A stretch of DNA of 64,000 bases. Origin: Pseudomonas versuta (GTDB lineage Bacteria; Pseudomonadota; Gammaproteobacteria; Pseudomonadales; Pseudomonadaceae). Below are positions 49,699 to 59,797 of this stretch, in pieces. Position 1 is the first letter of the stretch. The number at the start of each line of letters is the position of its first letter. The stretch covers positions 310,001 to 374,000 of the forward strand of contig NZ_CP012676.1 in the NCBI RefSeq assembly GCF_001294575.1. The letters are read 5' to 3'. The position numbers and the translations under genes were made by a program. The notes beneath the pieces were generated by a model. It saw only the letters and a program-made list of their open reading frames with translations. It did no database searches and was not told the origin of the DNA.

Positions 49699-51090
49699 TT
49701 ATCTGATGATTTTATCCACGTGGATATCGAGCTTTTTCAGGCGATACCAAAAGCTGCGCTCTGAAATACCAATCAACTGTGCAGCAGCAGCCTGTACGCC
49801 CTGGGCTTGTTGCAAGGCCGCAAGGATGTAGGCTTTTTCCACCTCTGCCAGCGCCGCTTCCAGATCGGGCGGCACGGCTGGCCCCGGGCTCAGCAGGGCG
49901 CTGGCTTGGCTCGGCTGGGCGCTGAACAGGTAGGGCGGCAAGTCACTGTCCTGGATCGTGTTGCTGGTGGCCACAATGGTGGCGCGTTCGACACAGTTTT
50001 GCAGTTCGCGAATGTTGCCCGGCCAGTTGTATTCGGCCATGGCCTGCAAGGCACTTGGGCTGAAGCCGGTAATCCGTTTGCCCGCAGTTGCCCCCAGATT
50101 GTGGGCGAAGTGTCGCGCCAGCGGGGCGATGTCCTCAACGCGCTCGCGCAGGGCGGGAAGCGGGATCGGAAATACATTCAGCCGGTAATACAAATCCTCG
50201 CGAAACTCTTTGTTGGCCACTGCTTCCAGCAGGTTTTTATTGGTGGCCGCAATTACCCGTACATCGACCTTGCGCTCTCGCGGATCACCCACGGGCTCAA
50301 TTACCCGTTCTTGCAGCGCACGCAAAATCTTGGCTTGCAGTGCCAGGGGCATATCGCCAACTTCATCGAGAAACAACGTGCCTTTGTCTGCCTGCATGAA
50401 GCGCCCGACACGATCGGCGACCGCGCCGGTAAATGCGCCTTTGCGATGACCGAACATCTCGCTTTCCAGCAGCCCCTCGGGAATGGCCGCACAGTTGACC
50501 GCGACAAAGGGTTTGTCGGCCCGGCTACCGTGTTTGTGGATGGCCCGGGCAACCATCTCTTTGCCGGTACCGCTTTCACCGGTCAGCAGGATAGTAGCGT
50601 TGCTGTCACGTACCGAGTCGATGGCGTGCAGCACCCGACGAAAACTCGGGCTGTCACCTATCAGGTTCTCGATATGCCGGTGTTCGTCGAGTTCGGCTCG
50701 CATGCGCGCGTTGTCGCGCAGGATGTCGCGAAACTGCAGGGCTTTGCTGACCGAGACATCCAGTTCATCGATATCGAAGGGCTTGGCTATGTAGTCGTAA
50801 GCACCATTGCGCATCGACTGTACGGCGTTTTTCACCGTGCTGTAGGCCGTCATCACAATGACGGGCAGTTGCGGATAACGCAGTTTGACCTCAGCCAGCA
50901 GTTGCGGGCCGTCCATACCGGGCATGCGCCAGTCGCTGATGATCAGGTCGATGTCTTCCTGCTCCAGAATGGCCAGTGCTTGCAGGCCATTGCCTGCGGT
51001 AAATACCTGCACTTCGTTCTGGCTCAGCGCGGAACTGAGCAGGTCGCACAGTTTCGGCTCGTCATCGACCACCAGGATGTTGTGACTCAT
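49699..51090 (-). CDS. Sigma54-dependent response regulator (last gene of six-gene operon)
   Basis: A 463-residue NtrC-type enhancer-binding protein. The receiver domain (1-120) has phosphoacceptor Asp in DLIISDWRMPG. The AAA+ domain has Walker A GESGTGKE, the intact sigma54-contact motif GAFTGA and Walker B GTLFLDEVGD. A Fis-type helix-turn-helix ends the protein (AAAQLIGISERSFWYRLKK). It overlaps the kinase gene upstream by four bases (ATGA). A sigma54 promoter and a palindrome lie at the head of the same operon, so autoregulation of the whole unit is the simplest reading. The signal and true orthologue are unknown. Confidence 0.93.
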   Translation of the reverse strand: MSHNILVVDDEPKLCDLLSSALSQNEVQVFTAGNGLQALAILEQEDIDLIISDWRMPGMDGPQLLAEVKLRYPQLPVIVMTAYSTVKNAVQSMRNGAYDYIAKPFDIDELDVSVSKALQFRDILRDNARMRAELDEHRHIENLIGDSPSFRRVLHAIDSVRDSNATILLTGESGTGKEMVARAIHKHGSRADKPFVAVNCAAIPEGLLESEMFGHRKGAFTGAVADRVGRFMQADKGTLFLDEVGDMPLALQAKILRALQERVIEPVGDPRERKVDVRVIAATNKNLLEAVANKEFREDLYYRLNVFPIPLPALRERVEDIAPLARHFAHNLGATAGKRITGFSPSALQAMAEYNWPGNIRELQNCVERATIVATSNTIQDSDLPPYLFSAQPSQASALLSPGPAVPPDLEAALAEVEKAYILAALQQAQGVQAAAAQLIGISERSFWYRLKKLDIHVDKIIR

Positions 51091-52850
51091 GACTCATCCC
51101 CTCCATGGGCCGGAATATACAAGTTGAAGGTGGTTCCGGCGTCTTTCTCGCTGATGCATTCAACACGACCGTCGTGGTTATCCATGATTGAGAAAACCTT
51201 GGGCAAACCCAAACCTGTACCTGAGGCCTTGGTGGTGACAAAGGGCGTGAAAATTCGCTCGATCATGTCAGGTTCAATACCTTGGCCGGTATCGATAATG
51301 CTGATCACAGTGTCATCGTTGTCATCACGGGCGATGCGTAATGTCAGGTGCCCGCCGCCGGGCATGGCGTCGATGGCATTGATGATCAGGTTCAGACAGG
51401 CCTGTTTCAGTTGCCGGGTGTCCGCGTAAATGGTCGCCCCGGGGGCTTTGTCGTCTATTTCGGTTTTGATGTTGTGGCTGTCCAGCTCGGGCTTGCAGAA
51501 GCCCAGAATATCCTCGACCAGAGGGCGTGCCGGCTGGACTGAACGCACCGGTGCACTGGGTTTGGCAAAGTCGAGGAAGTCAGTGATCAGTTCGTTGATT
51601 CGCGATACCTCGCTGATCACGTACTCCAGATGGCGCTTGTCGGTTTCGTCCAGATTGGCCCGCCGGTGCAGCAGTTGGGTGGCGGTTTTGATAATACCCA
51701 AGGGATTGCGAATTTCATGGGCCAGGCCCATCGCGACTTCGCCCAGTGCATGCAGGCGATCACGGCGCCGTAACTGAGCCTCAAGGTGATGCAGTTGGGC
51801 CAGGCGCACGGTCATGTGGTTGAAGGTGCTGCTTAACTCTGCCAGTTCATCGCGCCCTGACACTGTCACCAGTCGTGTGTAATCCCCGGCGGTCACAGCT
51901 CGCACACCTTCAGACAGCCCCCGCAACGGCCGGGTCAGGCGCGCGGAAACCAGCCAGCCAACGCTCAGCGAAAGCATCGAGCCGACCAGGAAAATCAGTG
52001 CAAACAGGTTGCTCTGATTGACCAGGCCGACAAGGCTGGTATGGCGTAGAAGACCACTGTAGATCACCCCTTGCAGTTCACCGGTATTGTTGAGGATTGG
52101 CCAGTACAGCCCGCTGTAGCGGCTGGTGAATTGCTCGCTGGGCTGCTTGGTTTCACGCAATATTTGTTCGATCGCATGCGGCACCTGGGGCTGGCGGTCA
52201 TCAAAGTGCTGACTGGAGAAAATCTCGGAAAAGCCATCGGGATTGGCCAGATACAGGCGCAAATCCAGGGAGTGCACGTCAGCGACGCTGGTCAGAAAAC
52301 TGTTGTCCATATAAGTGGCAACCAGCAGTTGATAGGCCTCGCCATCCTGAGTGGTAGGGAAAGTCGACACTACAGTACCTGTCGGCACGCCGCCCACGTC
52401 GATGGTTTGCAGCACTGCGTTGGGCGCAAGGCTGATCTGGTCAACGATGTCTTCGCTGGCCGTGCTGAAAACTACTTTGTGATCACTGCTGCGAATCAGC
52501 GCTACGACGTCAATGTCCATCGCGCCTGCAATATCAGCGGTCAGTTTGTCGTGGCGCAGCGCTGCATGGGAAGAGGGCGGGTGGGTATAGCGCAGGAACA
52601 ACTGTGCGGCGCGGGCATTGTCGTGAACGATTTCACCAATTTCGTCTTTGACGATCTTGGTCGACTCCTGCAGCCAGACCCGCACGTTGCTGTCGAAAAT
52701 ATGCGACAGCGTGGTGGCGGCCAGTTCGGCAGCGATCATGGTGGGAATGACGCTGACCAGCCAAAAAGCCAGGACCAGTTTGCGCTGAACCGTCCAGCGC
52801 GAGACCTTGAACGGTTGGGCATTGCGCGTTGATTCAGGCGTGATTGGCAT
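51087..52850 (-). CDS. Membrane sensor histidine kinase
   Basis: A 587-residue kinase paired with the sigma54 regulator. TM1 is near residues 25-48, a large periplasmic sensor domain (PDC/Cache-like) covers ~50-280, TM2 is LFALIFLVGSMLSLSVGWLV and is followed by HAMP. The phosphoacceptor box is GLAHEIRNPLGIIKT. The ATPase has N box NLIINAIDAM, G1 DTGQGI and G2 GTGLGLP. Its ATG shares one base with the stop of the acyltransferase-like gene upstream (TAATG). Confidence 0.92.
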   Translation of the reverse strand: MPITPESTRNAQPFKVSRWTVQRKLVLAFWLVSVIPTMIAAELAATTLSHIFDSNVRVWLQESTKIVKDEIGEIVHDNARAAQLFLRYTHPPSSHAALRHDKLTADIAGAMDIDVVALIRSSDHKVVFSTASEDIVDQISLAPNAVLQTIDVGGVPTGTVVSTFPTTQDGEAYQLLVATYMDNSFLTSVADVHSLDLRLYLANPDGFSEIFSSQHFDDRQPQVPHAIEQILRETKQPSEQFTSRYSGLYWPILNNTGELQGVIYSGLLRHTSLVGLVNQSNLFALIFLVGSMLSLSVGWLVSARLTRPLRGLSEGVRAVTAGDYTRLVTVSGRDELAELSSTFNHMTVRLAQLHHLEAQLRRRDRLHALGEVAMGLAHEIRNPLGIIKTATQLLHRRANLDETDKRHLEYVISEVSRINELITDFLDFAKPSAPVRSVQPARPLVEDILGFCKPELDSHNIKTEIDDKAPGATIYADTRQLKQACLNLIINAIDAMPGGGHLTLRIARDDNDDTVISIIDTGQGIEPDMIERIFTPFVTTKASGTGLGLPKVFSIMDNHDGRVECISEKDAGTTFNLYIPAHGGDES

Positions 52851-53974
52851 TAATGCTCGCTTATTGCTGCCGCAAGGGCGGGGTCATGACGGTCGGGGCG
52901 GATGAACAGTTTGACCAGTTTGAGCACGTTATTGATCAGCCGGTTGCGATGGCGGAAAAACAGTGTATTGCTCTGGAAGCTGCACCCTAGTCGAACTTTG
53001 CAGGCGTATCCGGCCTGGCCGCACTCGTATAGCTCGATCCCGTTACGGATGCAGTAGTCGACGTTTACCATCCAGCTTCTGAAATACAAACTGTACTCGC
53101 GCGTCAGTTCAAGGTCGTGACCGAAAAACTTGTCGATCAGCCGATGTTCGTTAATCAATACCAGATTGAATGCTACCAGTTGGTCGTCGAGCCAATACAG
53201 CACGCAGAGTGCCCGGTCCCCAAGTTGCCGGAGGATACCTGTGAAATAAGCGGGTGGTAAGCGTTCGAATTGCAGGTCGCTGCGCGCCAGGCTCGCTTCA
53301 TACAACCGCATGATATCGGGCAAAACATCGTCAATGGCGCTGCGCCATTCCACCCGGGGGCCGGGCGAGCGCAATTTGCGGCGCAAGTCTTTGCGGGTGG
53401 ACTTACCCAGGGAGCCGAGGTAACAGTCAACCGAGCCAAAAGGCACCGGCAACATGGCACTGGGAAGGCTGGGCATGGACTGAAACCCCGCCGCCTTGCA
53501 GCTTTGCGACCAGTCATCGTCGTTGCTGGAGACATCCTTGACCGCTATCAAGCCGATGCCCAGTCGGCTGGCATCTTGCTGGGCCAGACTAAGCAGTTGT
53601 GCCAGCAGGGCCGGCCGCTGGGCAGGTTGAATATGGCTGGCGGTGCCAGCGGTGCATTGTTCGGTCACCGGCGAGCCGATGGCGTATAGATGCAATTGCA
53701 TCAGCCCCGGCACTGCACGGTTCAGTTTTTCGGTAAACCGTTTACCAATACCCTGAACCGTGGTGTCGAGGCGATAGCTGGTGGTGAATGCGGTGGCGGC
53801 GGCAATCAGGTCAGAACCTTTGAACAGCGCCAGGTAGCGCCATTCGAAACCCTCAATGCCAGCGTTTTCGACAGCCATGATGTAGTCCCAATCCTCCAGA
53901 GAACCTGGGAAACAGTCATTCCAGGCCTCGCGTTTAATGGCCTGGATTGATGAAAAGGCTTGGGCTGTAATCAT
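52850..53974 (-). CDS. GNAT/FemAB-like N-acyltransferase
   Basis: A 374-residue soluble protein resembling the COG3146/FemAB-type branch of the GNAT fold. Features visible are STRKDLRRKLRSPGPRVEW before the acyl-transfer domain, RLYEASLARSDLQFERLP, and DQLVAFNLVLINEHRLIDKF, the double-stranded core of an acyl-acceptor domain. Relatives attach an amino acid or acyl group to an amine. It stands between the hydrolase gene (14 bases upstream) and the kinase gene (one-base overlap). The substrate is unknown. Confidence 0.75.
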   Translation of the reverse strand: MITAQAFSSIQAIKREAWNDCFPGSLEDWDYIMAVENAGIEGFEWRYLALFKGSDLIAAATAFTTSYRLDTTVQGIGKRFTEKLNRAVPGLMQLHLYAIGSPVTEQCTAGTASHIQPAQRPALLAQLLSLAQQDASRLGIGLIAVKDVSSNDDDWSQSCKAAGFQSMPSLPSAMLPVPFGSVDCYLGSLGKSTRKDLRRKLRSPGPRVEWRSAIDDVLPDIMRLYEASLARSDLQFERLPPAYFTGILRQLGDRALCVLYWLDDQLVAFNLVLINEHRLIDKFFGHDLELTREYSLYFRSWMVNVDYCIRNGIELYECGQAGYACKVRLGCSFQSNTLFFRHRNRLINNVLKLVKLFIRPDRHDPALAAAISEH

Positions 53975-53988
53975 GGATCCTCCTTGGG

Positions 53989-54855
53989 TCAGGCCTGCTG
54001 CAGGTACTCGACAGGTTCCTGTGAGACGGTGCTGTTTTTCTTGATGAAGGCGGCACTCAGTTCAATCACTCGACGGTATTGCAGATCGACGGTGATCATG
54101 TGGTAACAGTTGTCGAGCAGAACCTTGGTCACCGGACCGCCCAGATGGCGCTCCACGTAATCGGCGTTCCAGCGGCTGGTGATGTCGTCTTCGATGGAGT
54201 GCAGCACCAGTGCGGGCGTGGTGATCGACGGCATGCGTTTTTTCACCACGGCATTCATCCGGTGCAGTTCGCGCACGGTGATGCCTTCCATCGTCAGTAG
54301 CCCGGCATTACTGCTTTCACCCGCTTTCATCTGCCGTTCAACGATTGCCCGCAAGCGCTCGTTCTTGATCCCGTAAGGCGGTTTCTCCTCAAAACTGCAC
54401 AGGCGGACGCCGAACGGAATTGCCATCAGCAACGGTGTCAGGAATGCCAGTTTGTTAATGCTCCAGCCGTCGTACCGCAAGGTGGTGGAATACATCAACA
54501 AGCCCGCCACTTGCCCCGGATGCTCGGAGGCTACGTACATCGACATCACGGCCCCCATCGACAAGCCGCCGACGAAAACCTGGCTATGGCGCTGGCGCAC
54601 ATCGGCGAAGGTCTTACGCACCCCTTCGTACCAGTCTTGCCAGCCGGTGGCCTGCAGGTCGCTGTTGTCTCCGCAATGGCCAGCCAGAGTCGGTACGTAC
54701 ACCGTGCACGTCCCGTCCTTGGCCAGCCCCTGGGCCACCCGACGCAACTCCGTCGGGGTGCCTGTGAGGCCGTGGATCAACAGAATCCCGACCTCGCCCG
54801 TGCCGAGAACGAAACCGGCGTCGCCTTCGCCCAGATCGATCCCTGCACTGTTCAC
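53989..54855 (-). CDS. Alpha/beta hydrolase (lipase/thioesterase-like)
   Basis: A 288-residue hydrolase. The oxyanion start is GILLIHGLTGTPTELRRV, the nucleophile elbow is GLSMGA (FVGGLSMGAVMSMYVASEHP), and catalytic Asp and His are likely in LHSIEDDITS and LDNCYHMITVD. This is close to carboxylesterases and monoacylglycerol lipases. There is no signal peptide, so it is cytoplasmic. It starts four bases before the stop of the aminotransferase gene (ATGA overlap). Confidence 0.87.
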   Translation of the reverse strand: MNSAGIDLGEGDAGFVLGTGEVGILLIHGLTGTPTELRRVAQGLAKDGTCTVYVPTLAGHCGDNSDLQATGWQDWYEGVRKTFADVRQRHSQVFVGGLSMGAVMSMYVASEHPGQVAGLLMYSTTLRYDGWSINKLAFLTPLLMAIPFGVRLCSFEEKPPYGIKNERLRAIVERQMKAGESSNAGLLTMEGITVRELHRMNAVVKKRMPSITTPALVLHSIEDDITSRWNADYVERHLGGPVTKVLLDNCYHMITVDLQYRRVIELSAAFIKKNSTVSQEPVEYLQQA

Positions 54856-56246
54856 CGTTTCATGGCCCGATGCAGCAGGCGGTCGAGCAGGGCGATGCCC
54901 AGATCGATTTCGGCGTAGCTGATTTCCAGCGACGGAGCCAGGGTGATGACGTTTTTGTAGTAGCCGCCAACGTCCAGAATCAGACCCAGGCGCTTGCCGT
55001 CGATTTCGATGTCGCCTTTCATTCCTTCTTCAACCATGTAGTCCAGGGTTGCCTTGTCTGGCGTGAAGCCATCCGGGCCGCAGATTTCGCAGCGCAGTGC
55101 CAGGCCCAGGCCGTCGACGTCGCCGATGATCGGATAGCGTTTCTGCAAGTCCTGCAGACCTGCCAGGAAGTATTTGCCTTTTTCCATGACCATCGCGCCG
55201 TAGTCGATTTCGCTGGTCATTTTGAACATTTCCAGACCGACCGCAGTGCCCAGCGGGTTGGAGGCGAAGGTCGAGTGGGTCGAGCCAGGCGGGAAAATTT
55301 TCGGGTTGATCAACTCCTCACGGGCCCAGATACCGCCCAGCGGGTTGAGACCGTTGGTCAGTGCTTTACCGAACACGATCACGTCGGGTTTGACGTCGAA
55401 GTGCTCAATGGACCACAGCTTGCCGGTGCGCCAGAAGCCCATCTGGATTTCATCGACCACCATCAAAATGCCGTGTTGATCCAGCACATGCTTGAGTTCG
55501 CTGTAGAAGTTCATCGGTGGAATCACATAGCCGCCGGTACCCTGGATGGGTTCCACGTAAAACGCTGCATATTCGCTCTGACCGACTTTCGGGTCCCATA
55601 CGCCGTTGTATTCGGTTTCAAACAAGCGGGCGAATTGCTGCACGCAGTGGCTGCCATATTCTTCTTTGGTCATGCCTTTCGGGCCGCGGAAGTGATACGG
55701 GAAGGGGATGAAGTTGGCACGTTCGCCGAAGTGGCCGTAGCGACGGCGGTAGCGGTAGCTGGAAGTAATCGATGAGGCGCCGAGTGTTCGGCCGTGGTAG
55801 CCGCCTTCGAAGGCAAACATCAGGCTTTTACCGTTGGTGGCGTTACGTACCACTTTCAACGAATCCTCGATGGACTGCGAGCCGCCGACGTTGAAGTGCA
55901 CTCGACCGTCGAGGCCGAACTTGTTTTTGGCATCGACCGCAATGCGCTCCGACAGCTCGATCTTGCCTTTGTGCAGGTATTGGCTGGCGATCTGCGGCAG
56001 GGTATCGATCTGTTGTTTCAGTGCGTTGTTCAAGCGCGGATTGGAGTAACCGAAGTTAACTGCCGAGTACCACATTTGCAGATCCAGATAAGCCTGGTCG
56101 CTGGTGTCCCACACGTAGGAGCCTTCGCAGCGGCTGAAAATGCGTGGCGGTTCGATGTAATGAACGGTGTCGCCGTACGAGCAGTACTTGGCTTCTTTTT
56201 CCAGAAGAATCTGGTCTTCAGGTGTAGCAATTCGGATATCAGACAT
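54852..56246 (-). CDS. Class III PLP aminotransferase
   Basis: A 464-residue fold-type I, class III enzyme (aspartate aminotransferase family in databases). Visible features are FEGGYHGRTLGASSITSS (PLP phosphate region), VVDEIQMGFWRTGKLWS (Asp contacting the pyridine nitrogen) and VIVFGKALTNGLNPLGG, whose Lys should bind PLP. The N-terminal part has CSYGDTVHYIEPPRIFSRCEG. Class III enzymes use omega-amino acids, diamines or keto sugars; nothing seen here fixes the substrate. The ATG at 56246 overlaps the HAD gene by eight bases, and the longer in-frame extension lies entirely inside that gene. Confidence 0.88.
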   Translation of the reverse strand: MSDIRIATPEDQILLEKEAKYCSYGDTVHYIEPPRIFSRCEGSYVWDTSDQAYLDLQMWYSAVNFGYSNPRLNNALKQQIDTLPQIASQYLHKGKIELSERIAVDAKNKFGLDGRVHFNVGGSQSIEDSLKVVRNATNGKSLMFAFEGGYHGRTLGASSITSSYRYRRRYGHFGERANFIPFPYHFRGPKGMTKEEYGSHCVQQFARLFETEYNGVWDPKVGQSEYAAFYVEPIQGTGGYVIPPMNFYSELKHVLDQHGILMVVDEIQMGFWRTGKLWSIEHFDVKPDVIVFGKALTNGLNPLGGIWAREELINPKIFPPGSTHSTFASNPLGTAVGLEMFKMTSEIDYGAMVMEKGKYFLAGLQDLQKRYPIIGDVDGLGLALRCEICGPDGFTPDKATLDYMVEEGMKGDIEIDGKRLGLILDVGGYYKNVITLAPSLEISYAEIDLGIALLDRLLHRAMKR

Positions 56247-56934
56247 GATTGAAGAGTTCCTGCTGTTCACGAGAATAGTGGGGTGCGTTGGCGGCATTGC
56301 TAGGCAATTCGGCGAACAGGGCTGCCAGTTCGGAGAATGTGTCGAAGCGGGCATAGGGAATGCCGTTGCGCTCGCAATGGTCGGCGAGGCTGTCTTTGGC
56401 AAACACGAAATCGGCGCTTGCAGCCACACACATGTCGGAGCGGCCGTCACCAATCACCAGCACGCGTTTGCCGCCGGGAGTGGTTTTACATTTGCAGTTG
56501 CCTGAGGCCGCACGGCAGGCATCGCTTGCATGCGGGAAGTCGATGCGCCAACTGTTGTGGTCAACCTGGCGCAGGCGGTTGGCGAGGATCGGCAGCAGGC
56601 TCACGTAGTTACGGGCCAGAATGCGCGCGATGCCCTGTTCGATACCGTCACTGACCACTTCGATAGAGGCTCCGAGACCGATGACGTGGTCAACGAAGTC
56701 CGGAAAGTCCGGGTCAATCTCAACCGTATCGAAATAAGCCAGCAGTTCGGCTGGGGAAGCTTTAACCAGCGACAGCTGGCGGCTGAGGCATTCCCGCGAA
56801 CCAATTTCACCTTTGACCCATTGATCTTCGATCGCTTCCCAGCTGGGGTCGGCGAAGCGTTGAAGAATGTTGTCGATGACATCGGTACGGGTGATGGTCC
56901 CGTCGAAATCACACACGATATGCCATTGCATCAT
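56239..56934 (-). CDS. HAD-IB phosphatase (MtnX-like), first gene of operon
   Basis: A ~231-residue phosphatase of the haloacid-dehalogenase subfamily IB. Motif I is VCDFDGTITRTD with nucleophile Asp and acid-base Asp. Motif II is EVVSDGIEQ, and motif III/IV is VLVIGDGRSDMCVAASAD. A cysteine-containing insert (SGNCKCKT) is typical of the MtnX/ThrH-like group. The ATG at 56934 stands eight bases after AGGA; ATGs at 56931 and 56940 are also possible. No methionine-salvage genes are nearby, so the MtnX label is about fold and not function. It heads the six-gene operon, 39 bases below a predicted sigma54 start site. Confidence 0.85.
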   Translation of the reverse strand: MMQWHIVCDFDGTITRTDVIDNILQRFADPSWEAIEDQWVKGEIGSRECLSRQLSLVKASPAELLAYFDTVEIDPDFPDFVDHVIGLGASIEVVSDGIEQGIARILARNYVSLLPILANRLRQVDHNSWRIDFPHASDACRAASGNCKCKTTPGGKRVLVIGDGRSDMCVAASADFVFAKDSLADHCERNGIPYARFDTFSELAALFAELPSNAANAPHYSREQQELFNHV

Positions 56935-56983
56935 CTGCATTGTCCTGTTGTGGAGAAGCGCACTTTGCGCATATACGGGACAG

Positions 56984-57000
56984 AGCATGGACTGTGCCAA
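56984..57000 (-). promoter_or_regulatory. Sigma54 -24/-12 promoter of the six-gene operon
   Basis: On the minus strand TTGGCACAGTCCATGCT reads TTGGCAC (perfect -24) and ATGC (-12 element), with GG-N10-GC spacing. It fits consensus TTGGCAC-N5-TTGCA in all but one of the fixed bases. Transcription would start near 56973, 39 bases before the first gene. Confidence 0.75.
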
Positions 57001-57005
57001 CTTGC

Positions 57006-57030
57006 CAAAGCCCCGTGGGCCGGGGCTTTG
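57006..57030. other. Hairpin above the sigma54 promoter
   Basis: Perfect 9-bp stem CAAAGCCCC/GGGGCTTTG with a seven-base loop. It has no T-run on either side, so it is not a standard terminator. Confidence 0.6.
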
Positions 57031-57057
57031 GCAATGGGGTGCGGTAAAAAGGCAGCA

Positions 57058-57087
57058 GCAAGCTACAATTTTTGTAGCTTGCTACAA
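57058..57087. promoter_or_regulatory. GCTACAA palindrome array, candidate enhancer site
   Basis: GCAAGCTACAA-TTT-TTGTAGCTTGC is a perfect 11-bp inverted repeat (57058-57082). A second dyad, TTGTAGC-TT-GCTACAA, overlaps it (57072-57087), so the unit GCTACAA occurs three times. It lies 60-90 bases upstream of the sigma54 -24 element, where activators of sigma54 bind, and also 74 bases before the rightward outer-membrane protein gene. Confidence 0.68.
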
Positions 57088-57160
57088 ACAACATCAGTGC
57101 TTGCGTCGAGTGTTCAAAAAATGGATTTATGCGCGCATGAATTTTTATGGAAGTTTCGTA

Positions 57161-57925
57161 ATGAAAACCTCAGCGCCTGTTTTTATGTTTCTCACATTGT
57201 TGAGTGTTGGTGCTGGGGCACATGCTGCGGATGGTCCCAGTGGAGAAGTCGGGGTCGGGATTGGCTATCAGCCGTCCGATCCAAGTGGCAGTCGCTATCA
57301 GACGGTGCCGTTGCCGTATTTTGATGTGGACTGGGGCGATGTCAGCCTTGATACCGACGATGGCCTTACCTGGAGCGCCTTAAAGACGGATGGCTGGAGT
57401 GCGGGGCCCTTTATCAATTACTTGTCGGGGCGTAACGCCAACGGTTCGCTGCGAGGATTGCGCGATGTATCGGATATGGCCCTGCTGGGCGGCTTTGTGC
57501 AATACAGCCCTGCCGAGTTCTGGCGTGTGTATGCGCAACTGGGCCAGGCCGTAGGCGGTAGCGGCGGGCAGGGCGGGTTACTGGGCCAAGTGGGCGGTGA
57601 GCTGGGTTATCCCCTGGGACTAGGGATTATTGGCAGCAGCCAGTTGGCGGCGCACTTTGCAGATGGTCGGCAAATGTCCACTTTCTTTGGCGTCAGCGCC
57701 AGTGAAGCCCAGGCTTCAGGGATCTCTGCCTATCACGCCAGCGGTGGCTTCCAGAATGTGACGCTGACCCAGAACGTTGAATTCCCGCTGGCGCAGCATT
57801 GGTCGCTGGTGGCCAGCGTCAGCTGGGTTCGCCTGGTGGGTTCGGCGGCCGACAGCAGCATCGTCAGAGAGCAAGGCGATGTGAATCAGGGCTCGGTGCA
57901 GACCGCGGTCAGTTATAAATTCTAA
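57161..57925 (+). CDS. MipA/OmpV-family outer-membrane protein
   Basis: A 254-residue protein. A signal peptide (residues 1-23, LLSVGAGAHAADG) is followed by a beta-barrel of the MipA/OmpV family: GEVGVGIGYQPSDP, YQTVPLPYFDVDWGD and a C-terminal Phe (TAVSYKF). MipA scaffolds murein synthases, while OmpV relatives are porins; the role here is unknown. The ATG at 57161 follows GGAAG at eight bases. The gene is divergent from the six-gene operon and shares its upstream palindrome region, so shared regulation is possible. Confidence 0.82.
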   Translation: MKTSAPVFMFLTLLSVGAGAHAADGPSGEVGVGIGYQPSDPSGSRYQTVPLPYFDVDWGDVSLDTDDGLTWSALKTDGWSAGPFINYLSGRNANGSLRGLRDVSDMALLGGFVQYSPAEFWRVYAQLGQAVGGSGGQGGLLGQVGGELGYPLGLGIIGSSQLAAHFADGRQMSTFFGVSASEAQASGISAYHASGGFQNVTLTQNVEFPLAQHWSLVASVSWVRLVGSAADSSIVREQGDVNQGSVQTAVSYKF

Positions 57926-57990: not shown

Positions 57991-58410
57991 TCAGTGCTCC
58001 GGCTCGCCGTCAGCCAGCAAGGCAATTCCGCCAATGATCACCGCCACGCCCACCCAGTGCAGTGTGCTGATGTGCTCGCCCAGGCCCAGCCATGACCCCA
58101 GCAACACGCCTACGAATACCAGCGAACTCAGTGGAAATGCCAGCGACAGACTGCTGCGGCGCAATATCAGCATCCATACGAAAAATGCCCCGATATAGCA
58201 GGCAATGGCTGCCCATACCCCGGGGTTCAGCATGACGTCTTGCAGCCATTGCAGGGTGAAATCCATATTGCCCAACTGATCGCCACCGACTTTGGTCGCA
58301 ATCTGCCCAGCGCTTTCGAGGATGATCAGCAGAGCCCACAGTACAACGGTGCCCAGACGGCCATGCAGCCATCCATTATGTGGCTGATTCATCGGTTCAG
58401 TGTTTTGCAT
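57991..58410 (-). CDS. SMR/EamA-type small transporter, subunit A
   Basis: A 139-residue four-helix protein of the small multidrug resistance/EamA-like group. Helix 1 is VVLWALLIILESAGQIATKVGG, with a membrane-embedded Glu at the position used by SMR proteins for proton and cation coupling. SLAFPLSSLVFVGVLLGSWLG makes the third helix. It is the last gene of a three-gene operon; the second SMR-like gene is 10 bases upstream. The pair likely forms a heterodimer, like MdtI-MdtJ or ArnE-ArnF. Confidence 0.83.
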   Translation of the reverse strand: MQNTEPMNQPHNGWLHGRLGTVVLWALLIILESAGQIATKVGGDQLGNMDFTLQWLQDVMLNPGVWAAIACYIGAFFVWMLILRRSSLSLAFPLSSLVFVGVLLGSWLGLGEHISTLHWVGVAVIIGGIALLADGEPEH

Positions 58411-58420
58411 GATTTATCTC

Positions 58421-58795
58421 CTAAGCTCCGGCGATGCAGACCAGCAACACGCCGAGGGTAATCACCAGAGTGCCCATCCAGCGGCGACGGCTGACGTGCT
58501 CGCCAAGAAACACCTTGCCGGCGTAGACCACTCCGCAATACGCCAGCGCCGCGGCCGGAAATAACAAACTCAGCGGTGCCCGCGACAACGCTTCGAGCCA
58601 GATGAAAAACTCGATCACGTAGGCGCCGATGCCCGCCCACAGCATGGGCGCCTGGAAGACTTGGCCCCAGAAGGCATTCAGGCGAAAGCCGCCTTCGAGT
58701 TCGGGTAACCGGTCGAGGCCGATTTTGAAACACAGTTGGCCGATCACATCGAGCACGATAGAAAACGCCACTAGCGCAATAACAATCAAAGTCAC
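58421..58795 (-). CDS. SMR/EamA-type small transporter, subunit B
   Basis: A 124-residue, four-helix partner of subunit A. Its helix 1 (VAFSIVLDVIGQLCFKIGLDRL) has Asp where subunit A has the coupling Glu, and the sequence ends in the hydrophobic helix TLVITLGVLLVCIAGA. Only the first helices have recognisable similarity to its partner. It overlaps the arginase-like gene by four bases. Confidence 0.82.
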   Translation of the reverse strand: MTLIVIALVAFSIVLDVIGQLCFKIGLDRLPELEGGFRLNAFWGQVFQAPMLWAGIGAYVIEFFIWLEALSRAPLSLLFPAAALAYCGVVYAGKVFLGEHVSRRRWMGTLVITLGVLLVCIAGA

Positions 58796-59712
58796 GGGAA
58801 CAGTTCCTCAAACAGTGAAATAAGGGCTTTGTTGGTGGTGGAGTTGCGCAGCAAGTCGGCTTCACTCCAGCGCTCTGGTGCAGGCTGATCGGACCTGGCC
58901 TCCCAGCGTTTGAGCAGGTTGCGGTGGGGCGCCCTGGCGAACTCGCCGCATACATCGATTCCCAGTACCCGCTTGCTGGCAGCCAGAGCACGGATGGCAT
59001 GCAGCAAGTGGGTAAGGCGCATGCCGCCCTGATCCCAATTGGTGGCAGCGTCTTCGCTGGCCAGCACGTCTTTGTCGATGGTGATCCACACGGCGGGGGT
59101 TGGCAGGCTCTGGATCAGGTCGTCGATAAAGGTTGGCCAGTCCAGATCGGCCAGGTTGCGCCAGTGCAGATGATTTTCGTGTTGCTCATGGCCCGCGCCA
59201 TCGCCGATTCGGCCCCAGACTTTGGTGGGCGCGTGTTGCCAGGGGAACAATTGCAGAGCCCCGCTGCGCAAGGCCCCCAGGTTGGCGCCCTTGAACTGCG
59301 GACTTTGCAGGTCATCGCTGCAGGGGCCAAGGGTGACGATACGCTGGATGTTTGGCAGCTTCAGGGCCCGGTTGATCCATGAACCGCAATGCCGGCGGGG
59401 GGCAAAGCGTACCCAGTCAGGGTGATTGTCGAAGTGGATCAGCGTGACCGGCTCTGCAAGGTCTGCCAGCAAAGCCGGTGTCAGATGGTGGTAATCACCG
59501 GAGCCGACAAAGAATATCTCCGGCTTGTGTGCCGGTCGTTCGGGGCGGTTTTGCAAGGCTTTGATGAAGCGTTGATAGTTGCGTTCGCTGGACCATAGCC
59601 GCAATTTCGGGCCCAGCTCCAGTAAATCAAGGCAAGTGGCACGACCATCGGCCAACCGCAGCGCAATAGGCGCTTGAGCAGTCAGGCTGTGGTCAAGATC
59701 TAGAATATTCAA
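58792..59712 (-). CDS. Arginase-fold protein
   Basis: A 306-residue protein with the ureohydrolase (arginase/agmatinase/deacetylase) metal-binding pattern: FVGSGDYHHL, HFDNHPDW (D-x-H-x-D-like) and ITIDKDVL (D-x-D-like). These could bind two Mn2+ ions. The rest is diverged from arginases and agmatinases. The gene heads an operon with two SMR-type transporters, which suggests that the product or substrate is a guanidino compound or polyamine. Substrate and activity are not established. Confidence 0.78.
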   Translation of the reverse strand: MNILDLDHSLTAQAPIALRLADGRATCLDLLELGPKLRLWSSERNYQRFIKALQNRPERPAHKPEIFFVGSGDYHHLTPALLADLAEPVTLIHFDNHPDWVRFAPRRHCGSWINRALKLPNIQRIVTLGPCSDDLQSPQFKGANLGALRSGALQLFPWQHAPTKVWGRIGDGAGHEQHENHLHWRNLADLDWPTFIDDLIQSLPTPAVWITIDKDVLASEDAATNWDQGGMRLTHLLHAIRALAASKRVLGIDVCGEFARAPHRNLLKRWEARSDQPAPERWSEADLLRNSTTNKALISLFEELFP

Positions 59713-59797
59713 CGTGTTATCTACCCCCGTGTATTCGCCGCCAGGTCAGGCCGGGCGGGCTTTAGGGGGTAAATGCAAGGGACGGGCCAGAATATTT

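Follow-up and report, generated by a model that had tools for sequence, protein, structure and literature searches.

The stretch of DNA analysed here (hereafter the window) comprises 64,000 nt of the Pseudomonas versuta contig NZ_CP012676.1 (GCF_001294575.1), positions 310,001-374,000 of the forward strand; the coordinates below are those of the window. It carries six leftward genes that were noticed in an earlier examination of the letters alone (the sequence-only reading). In order of transcription, all on the minus strand, they encode an MtnX-like HAD-IB phosphatase (HAD; 56239..56940), a class III pyridoxal phosphate aminotransferase (AT; 54852..56246; PF00202, E 7.4e-72), an alpha/beta hydrolase with a GTG start (ABH; 53989..54855; PF12146/PF12697), a tandem-GNAT FemAB-like transferase (GNAT; 52850..53974; PF13480 and PF04339 above cut-off), a membrane sensor histidine kinase (HK; 51087..52850; HAMP, HisKA and HATPase domains) and an NtrC-type sigma54-dependent response regulator (RR; 49699..51090; PF00072, PF00158 and PF02954 above cut-off). 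Judged by open reading frame coordinates and Pfam, the arrangement is exactly as that reading claimed, with overlaps of 8 (HAD/AT), 4 (AT/ABH), 1 (GNAT/HK) and 4 (HK/RR) bases and a gap of 14 bases between ABH and GNAT.

All six family assignments lie above the Pfam cut-off. The window proteins contain DFDGT and GDGRSD (HAD), a GLSMGA nucleophile elbow (ABH) and a GKALTNG lysine region, which we take to be catalytic signatures. Among the HAD phosphatase models tested, HAD passes only the MtnX-like subfamily TIGR01489 (86.8 bits vs a cut-off of 81.55) and fails the MtnX equivalog models (115.6 and 98.4 bits vs 292 and 303.2). It has several in-frame ATGs, and an upstream AGGA better fits a start at 56934 or 56931. 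RR combines receiver, AAA+ sigma54 activation and Fis-type helix-turn-helix domains, which make it NtrC-type; it is closest to AtoC and fails that NCBIfam equivalog (474.3 bits vs 714).

Upstream of HAD lies a sigma54 -24/-12 promoter (56985..57000, minus strand; TTGGCAC-AGTCCA-TGC) with the GG-N10-GC spacing reported in the sequence-only reading, whose predicted start at about 56973 agrees with this position. A strong match is present in 79/79 sequences, namely the window and 78 Pseudomonas loci (mean score 27.4 of 30 vs 15.5 for shuffles). Further upstream, a near-invariant block of 41 bases (57062..57102, minus strand) is the predicted activator binding site and contains the palindromes GCTACAA-AAA-TTGTAGC (57062-57078) and TGTAGC-AA-GCTACA (57073-57086), both on the minus strand. 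At least 36 of its 41 bases match in 78/81 sequences, and the flanking bases vary. The exceptions are L041, with 33 of 41 bases and an indel, and L045 and L046, which lack the region. From this palindrome block, TGTAGCNNGCTACA has a single perfect match in the window's genome.

The six genes form a stable unit in Pseudomonas. From a named-genome scan, the best 80 of 290 GNAT relatives were used as loci, and all listed records are Pseudomonas. The order HAD-AT-ABH-GNAT-HK-RR is kept in 80/80 as far as the contigs extend; all six genes are found in 77, and each of the other three loci ends at a contig edge. The single operon proposed earlier is thus supported, and the synteny comparison suggested along with it revealed no loss among these relatives. 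Best-match identity over the 80 loci is 91-100% for AT, which is the best conserved of the enzymes here (a range reached in 78 of the 80), 83-95% for RR, 75-96% for HAD, 75-94% for ABH and 66-89% for GNAT.

Divergent from HAD stands a gene for a MipA/OmpV-family outer membrane protein (57161..57925, plus strand; PF06629, E 4.3e-39), which occupies this place in 78/80 loci (62-89% identity), the remaining two being cut off. Beyond it, on the minus strand, are two genes for small EamA-type membrane proteins, SMR2 (57991..58410) and SMR1 (58421..58795), and one for a ureohydrolase (arginase)-fold protein (ARG; 58792..59712), assigned by fold and by Pfam PF00491. ARG, SMR1 and SMR2 are all present in 59/80 loci, or 59/69 once 11 of the other 21, cut by a contig end, are set aside. 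In 19/80 loci, a fatty acid desaturase gene, 49-55% identical to a Rhizobium desaturase, lies between SMR2 and MipA. ARG-SMR1-SMR2 (57991-59712) thus belong to a larger conserved unit beyond MipA, and the idea that the six genes are the complete unit was rejected on account of this conserved neighbourhood.

ARG was found in 34/149 Pseudomonas genomes, as the type seen in the window (type A) in 27, as a second distant type in six and as a short fragment in one; a single-sequence search of a class-wide sample matched 3/369 genomes, including the window's own. One genome search gave 25 genomes with a match, with nine weak ones (E > 1e-6) left out, and strong GNAT matches (E < 1e-160) were found in 9/57 relatives. 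In six Pseudomonas loci (L142, L145-L149) there is a second and distant module, made up of GNAT-ARG and two SMR genes and sometimes joined by a gene for a DegT-type aminotransferase; G031 has both this module and the six-gene operon. Pseudomonas putida 700447 has a further GNAT gene (34%; L095:3310) inserted between SMR1 and SMR2.

The metal ligands of ARG (H75, D95, H97, D99, D213 and D215) are invariant in 32/32 rows and fall in GxDH, DxHxD and DxD, presumably the metal-ligand motifs of the family. In arginase and agmatinase, a D-x-x-E near the C-terminus presumably provides the carboxylate that binds guanidinium. The position in register with it appears to be G256 in ARG (32/32 rows), followed by an acidic residue in the rows shown. 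A role for ARG as a true guanidine-cleaving arginase was rejected because the carboxylate is out of register, a judgement based on sequence register and not on superposition. This bears on the view that the cluster is a catabolic operon, induced by its substrate, which degrades an external amino or guanidino compound. The AtoS/AtoC-like regulators, the arginase fold and the frequency of aminotransferase and hydrolase families in catabolism would suit such a role. We hold it to be highly improbable: the conserved set has no uptake system or dehydrogenase, the carboxylate motif is not kept in register in the ARG family, and the SMR pair, the FemAB-like transferase, the desaturase and the ketosynthase and acyl carrier protein (ACP) of related clusters are anabolic or envelope parts.

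A second sigma54-type site, CTGGCCCG-N4-TTGCA (59774..59790, minus strand), lies upstream of ARG, in the same place in 60/60 sequences (the window and 59 loci; mean 25.8 vs 18.5 for shuffles). Another precedes the desaturase gene in 19/19 loci (23.3 vs 18.8); upstream of MipA, no consistent sigma54 site was seen (20.2 vs 18.0). The 80 Pseudomonas loci are related and hence are not independent samples of site conservation. A better sign that the sites are real beyond kinship is the persistence of the -24 and -12 boxes around four variable spacer bases. ARG, the desaturase gene and the six-gene operon likely form one regulon, as far as promoter sequences can tell. The idea that the same palindrome directly controls ARG and the desaturase gene was rejected, as none was seen upstream of either. 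A hairpin with perfect 13-base arms and a 5-base loop (57003..57033, minus strand) separates the palindromes from the sigma54 site of HAD; found by eye, with part of its arms listed computationally, it may prevent transcription of the ARG operon from reading through. Hairpins of other sequence seem to be placed likewise in some other loci.

Parts of the cluster also recur, rearranged, on plasmids of Rhizobium, Agrobacterium, Aureimonas, Roseomonas, Xanthomonas and Bartonella and in other Proteobacteria. The commonest core is phosphatase-aminotransferase-hydrolase, to which a FemAB-like transferase, an arginase-like protein, a flippase-like pair, a desaturase, and a ketosynthase with an ACP are optional additions. 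AT is 71-79% identical between Pseudomonas, Rhizobium, Bartonella and Xanthomonas. By accession, GNAT occurs in 49 plasmid records and ARG in 51, with 47 common to both; the 34 records with AT at 60% identity or more all lie within these 47.

For example, Rhizobium acidisoli and Phyllobacterium have HAD-AT-ARG-SMR-desaturase-ABH-GNAT-SMR-cyclopropane fatty acid synthase with MipA convergent, and genes for a desaturase and a cyclopropane-synthase-like protein occur in L016 and L018. Aureimonas and Roseomonas have HAD-ARG-ABH-GNAT together with an NtrC-type pair; their class III aminotransferase is a different one, which in Aureimonas is close to glutamate-1-semialdehyde aminomutase. Xanthomonas sacchari combines HAD, AT, ketosynthase, ACP, GNAT, ARG, a DegT-type aminotransferase, two SMR genes and ABH. 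Bartonella from bats has no more than AT-GNAT-ARG, with MBOAT and AlgX-like genes alongside. In 15 loci designated type B, GNAT adjoins ARG in 15/15, a DegT gene occurs in 13/15 and both SMR genes in 14/15, the remaining locus being cut off. Ketosynthase and ACP genes occur in L100, L135, L136, L171, L174, L175 and L179. A Nostoc plasmid (L103) carries genes for a nitric oxide synthase oxygenase, a desaturase, a class III aminotransferase, a GNAT, a formyltransferase and a DevBCA-type exporter, possibly an analogous lipid cluster.

Sixteen distant AT matches yielded nine new loci, with G569, which has a stop, left out. HAD and ABH lie beside AT in 8/9; in the ninth (L176:10788-11732), a more distant aminotransferase gene (56% identical) stands directly 5' of a sulfotransferase gene. 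Four of the nine have a ketosynthase and/or ACP gene, one an SMR pair, one an NtrC-type pair and two an ABH fused to the N-terminal part of GNAT. These fusions (L173:7864-9465 and L178:2598-4050, same genus) are possibly partial genes; the first includes only the first ~150 GNAT residues and the second runs off its contig. A conserved protein of 245 residues, unmatched by Pfam and dissimilar to GNAT, is encoded beside the ABH-AT-HAD-ketosynthase-ACP core in L174:7920-8657 and L175:7828-8565.

A further possibility is that the locus is a compact cluster for the biosynthesis of a secreted small molecule (a signal or antibiotic), an N-acylated amine for which the SMR pair would be the exit, its place being taken in relatives by an ABC/TolC exporter. 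ABC-permease and TolC-like genes lie beside the Agrobacterium cluster, the Xanthomonas cluster and several type B clusters, and the patchy spread of type A ARG would fit such a product. Against this, the window cluster is without a dedicated multidrug or major facilitator superfamily exporter, and ArnE/F-like pairs, the family that its SMR genes most resemble, are known for lipid-linked cargo. A secreted molecule is considered unlikely.

Outside Pseudomonas, loci with a visible NtrC-type pair have the sigma54 site in 5/5 cases and the palindrome in 4/5; among a control set of 16 other loci without such a pair, the two occur together in none, and all 16 lack the palindrome. GCTACAA-N3-TTGTAGC is exact in Roseomonas, and both arms are changed, covarying, in Aureimonas, L133, L134 and L172, with each palindrome 70 to 103 bases ahead of the sigma54 site. 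L134 has both elements on a contig that ends ahead of any regulator. L173, one of the controls, lacks the palindrome; its sigma54-like site (shuffle P 0.005) is accompanied by an RR/HK pair of more distant kinship (34% and 27%). The self-regulation proposed in the sequence-only reading is probable given the near-invariant palindrome and its company with NtrC-type pairs, and RR would be the protein that binds between MipA and HAD.

GNAT passes the FemAB_like model PF04339 (39.3 bits vs a gathering score of 27), and its predicted fold (predicted local distance difference test score 86.4) is closest to FemX, FemA, streptothricin aminoacyl-tRNA peptide synthases and MprF. Since these are its nearest folds, its donor could be an aminoacyl-tRNA instead of an acyl thioester. 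Unlike MprF and FemABX, GNAT is a separate soluble protein and its profile found no match among PDB sequences up to E 1. An acylated amino compound, as proposed earlier, fits the enzyme families and the two ABH-GNAT fusions. The best curated matches of SMR1 and SMR2 are ArnF and ArnE, the flippase part of the arn system that places aminoarabinose on lipid A. Their scores (52.0 of 99 and 42.3 of 92 bits) are far under the NCBIfam equivalog cut-offs. Type B clusters also resemble arn in having a DegT-type aminotransferase beside the SMR pair, as ArnB is in arn, whereas the cluster gave no match to an arn glycosyltransferase, an arn decarboxylase or ArnT. No ArnB match was found in the window's genome at the cut-off used, and an ArnT domain search matched 0/149 genomes, with its controls likewise unmatched, and hence carries no weight. 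Complementarity with arn was rejected (ArnB in 10/27 carriers vs 32/122 others).

One report (PMC10936184) describes P. aeruginosa MipA/MipB as a polymyxin co-sensor of ParS. By analogy, the MipA neighbour hints at a signal of envelope stress, no more than a lead given that the clusters of Aureimonas, Roseomonas and Xanthomonas have no MipA nearby. A rival reading is a split MprF/Arn-like envelope defence in which an aminoacyl-tRNA-dependent GNAT would attach amino acids to an amino head group or a lipid, the ArnE/F-like pair would flip the cationic product outward and MipA, in the manner of MipA/MipB with ParS, would help to sense cationic peptides. We regard this as unlikely.

Other known systems share single features with the cluster. 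Exosortase A/PEP-CTERM exopolysaccharide loci contain a FemAB protein, hydrolases, an ACP and an NtrC-type regulator; here, ABH (19.7 vs 202.75 bits, TIGR03101) and RR (408.5 vs 502.6, TIGR02915) fail the corresponding cut-offs. In Nod factor synthesis, a ketosynthase (NodE) and an ACP (NodF) serve an acyltransferase (NodA) and an exporter (NodIJ), and type B clusters may follow a similar logic, their N-acyltransferase and exporter being accompanied by a ketosynthase and an ACP of their own. Rhizobitoxine synthesis involves serinol and the amination of dihydroxyacetone phosphate; by analogy, AT and HAD would be well suited to aminating a phosphorylated C3 compound and then removing its phosphate. 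The sequence-only reading recognised no described pathway with its gene set, in agreement with the open-licence literature, where no description of the set, MipA included, was found (subscription papers lie outside this coverage); nothing tied to the locus was found in passages of PMC11547076 and PMC8743541.

Taken together, we lean, by a modest measure, towards a self-contained inducible module, switched by a sigma54/two-component system, for the synthesis and translocation of an acylated or aminoacylated amino compound, probably lipid-like. HK would sense an envelope or external signal and phosphorylate RR, which would bind the MipA-HAD palindrome, activate the sigma54 promoter of HAD-AT-ABH-GNAT-HK-RR and probably that of ARG-SMR1-SMR2 too. 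Because HK and RR sit in the operon that RR activates, such a circuit would amplify itself. AT would aminate a small carbonyl compound and HAD remove a phosphate to give a small amino head group, which is argued from the presence of an aminotransferase and a phosphatase in the core. An acyl chain is argued from the recurrence of desaturase, cyclopropane synthase, ketosynthase and ACP genes. The FemAB-like GNAT would join the two by attaching an acyl group to the amine, or add an aminoacyl group instead, and ABH and ARG may trim or hydrolyse an intermediate. Finally, the ArnE/ArnF-like SMR1-SMR2 pair would carry the product over the inner membrane. The earlier phrase of a compound built and released needs amending in its second half, release being better read as translocation. 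Overall, the six-gene observation is confirmed and its earlier interpretation partly supported.

Several observations weigh against this synthesis-and-translocation module. No substrate or product is assigned to the cluster, and the FemX/MprF-like predicted fold may point to an aminoacyl and not a fatty acyl product. ARG and the SMR pair are not nearby in 10/69 loci and G006 has the SMR pair without an ARG match, so these neighbours are not indispensable; in the second module (L142, L145-L149), GNAT-ARG-SMR stand without HAD, AT or ABH within the 19 kb covered. Control of ARG and the desaturase gene by RR is unproven, with no such palindrome seen upstream of either, and L179 has the NtrC pair and the sigma54 site without the palindrome.

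A bolder extension, possible and on balance doubtful, is that the cluster makes a further class of bacterial amino-lipid, an inducible route of Gram-negative envelope remodelling beside Arn and MprF, present in varied arrangements in Pseudomonas, rhizobia, Xanthomonas and other Proteobacteria. If the proposed module is real, many pseudomonads associated with plants and food, and rhizobia too, share a recurring and hitherto unrecognised pathway to an amino compound destined for the envelope or for secretion, which would account for many proteins now labelled 'arginase family', 'EamA family', 'MtnX-like' or 'GNAT family'. Its defined switch would make the pathway directly testable, and the near-invariant AT and conserved operator offer handles toward the product.

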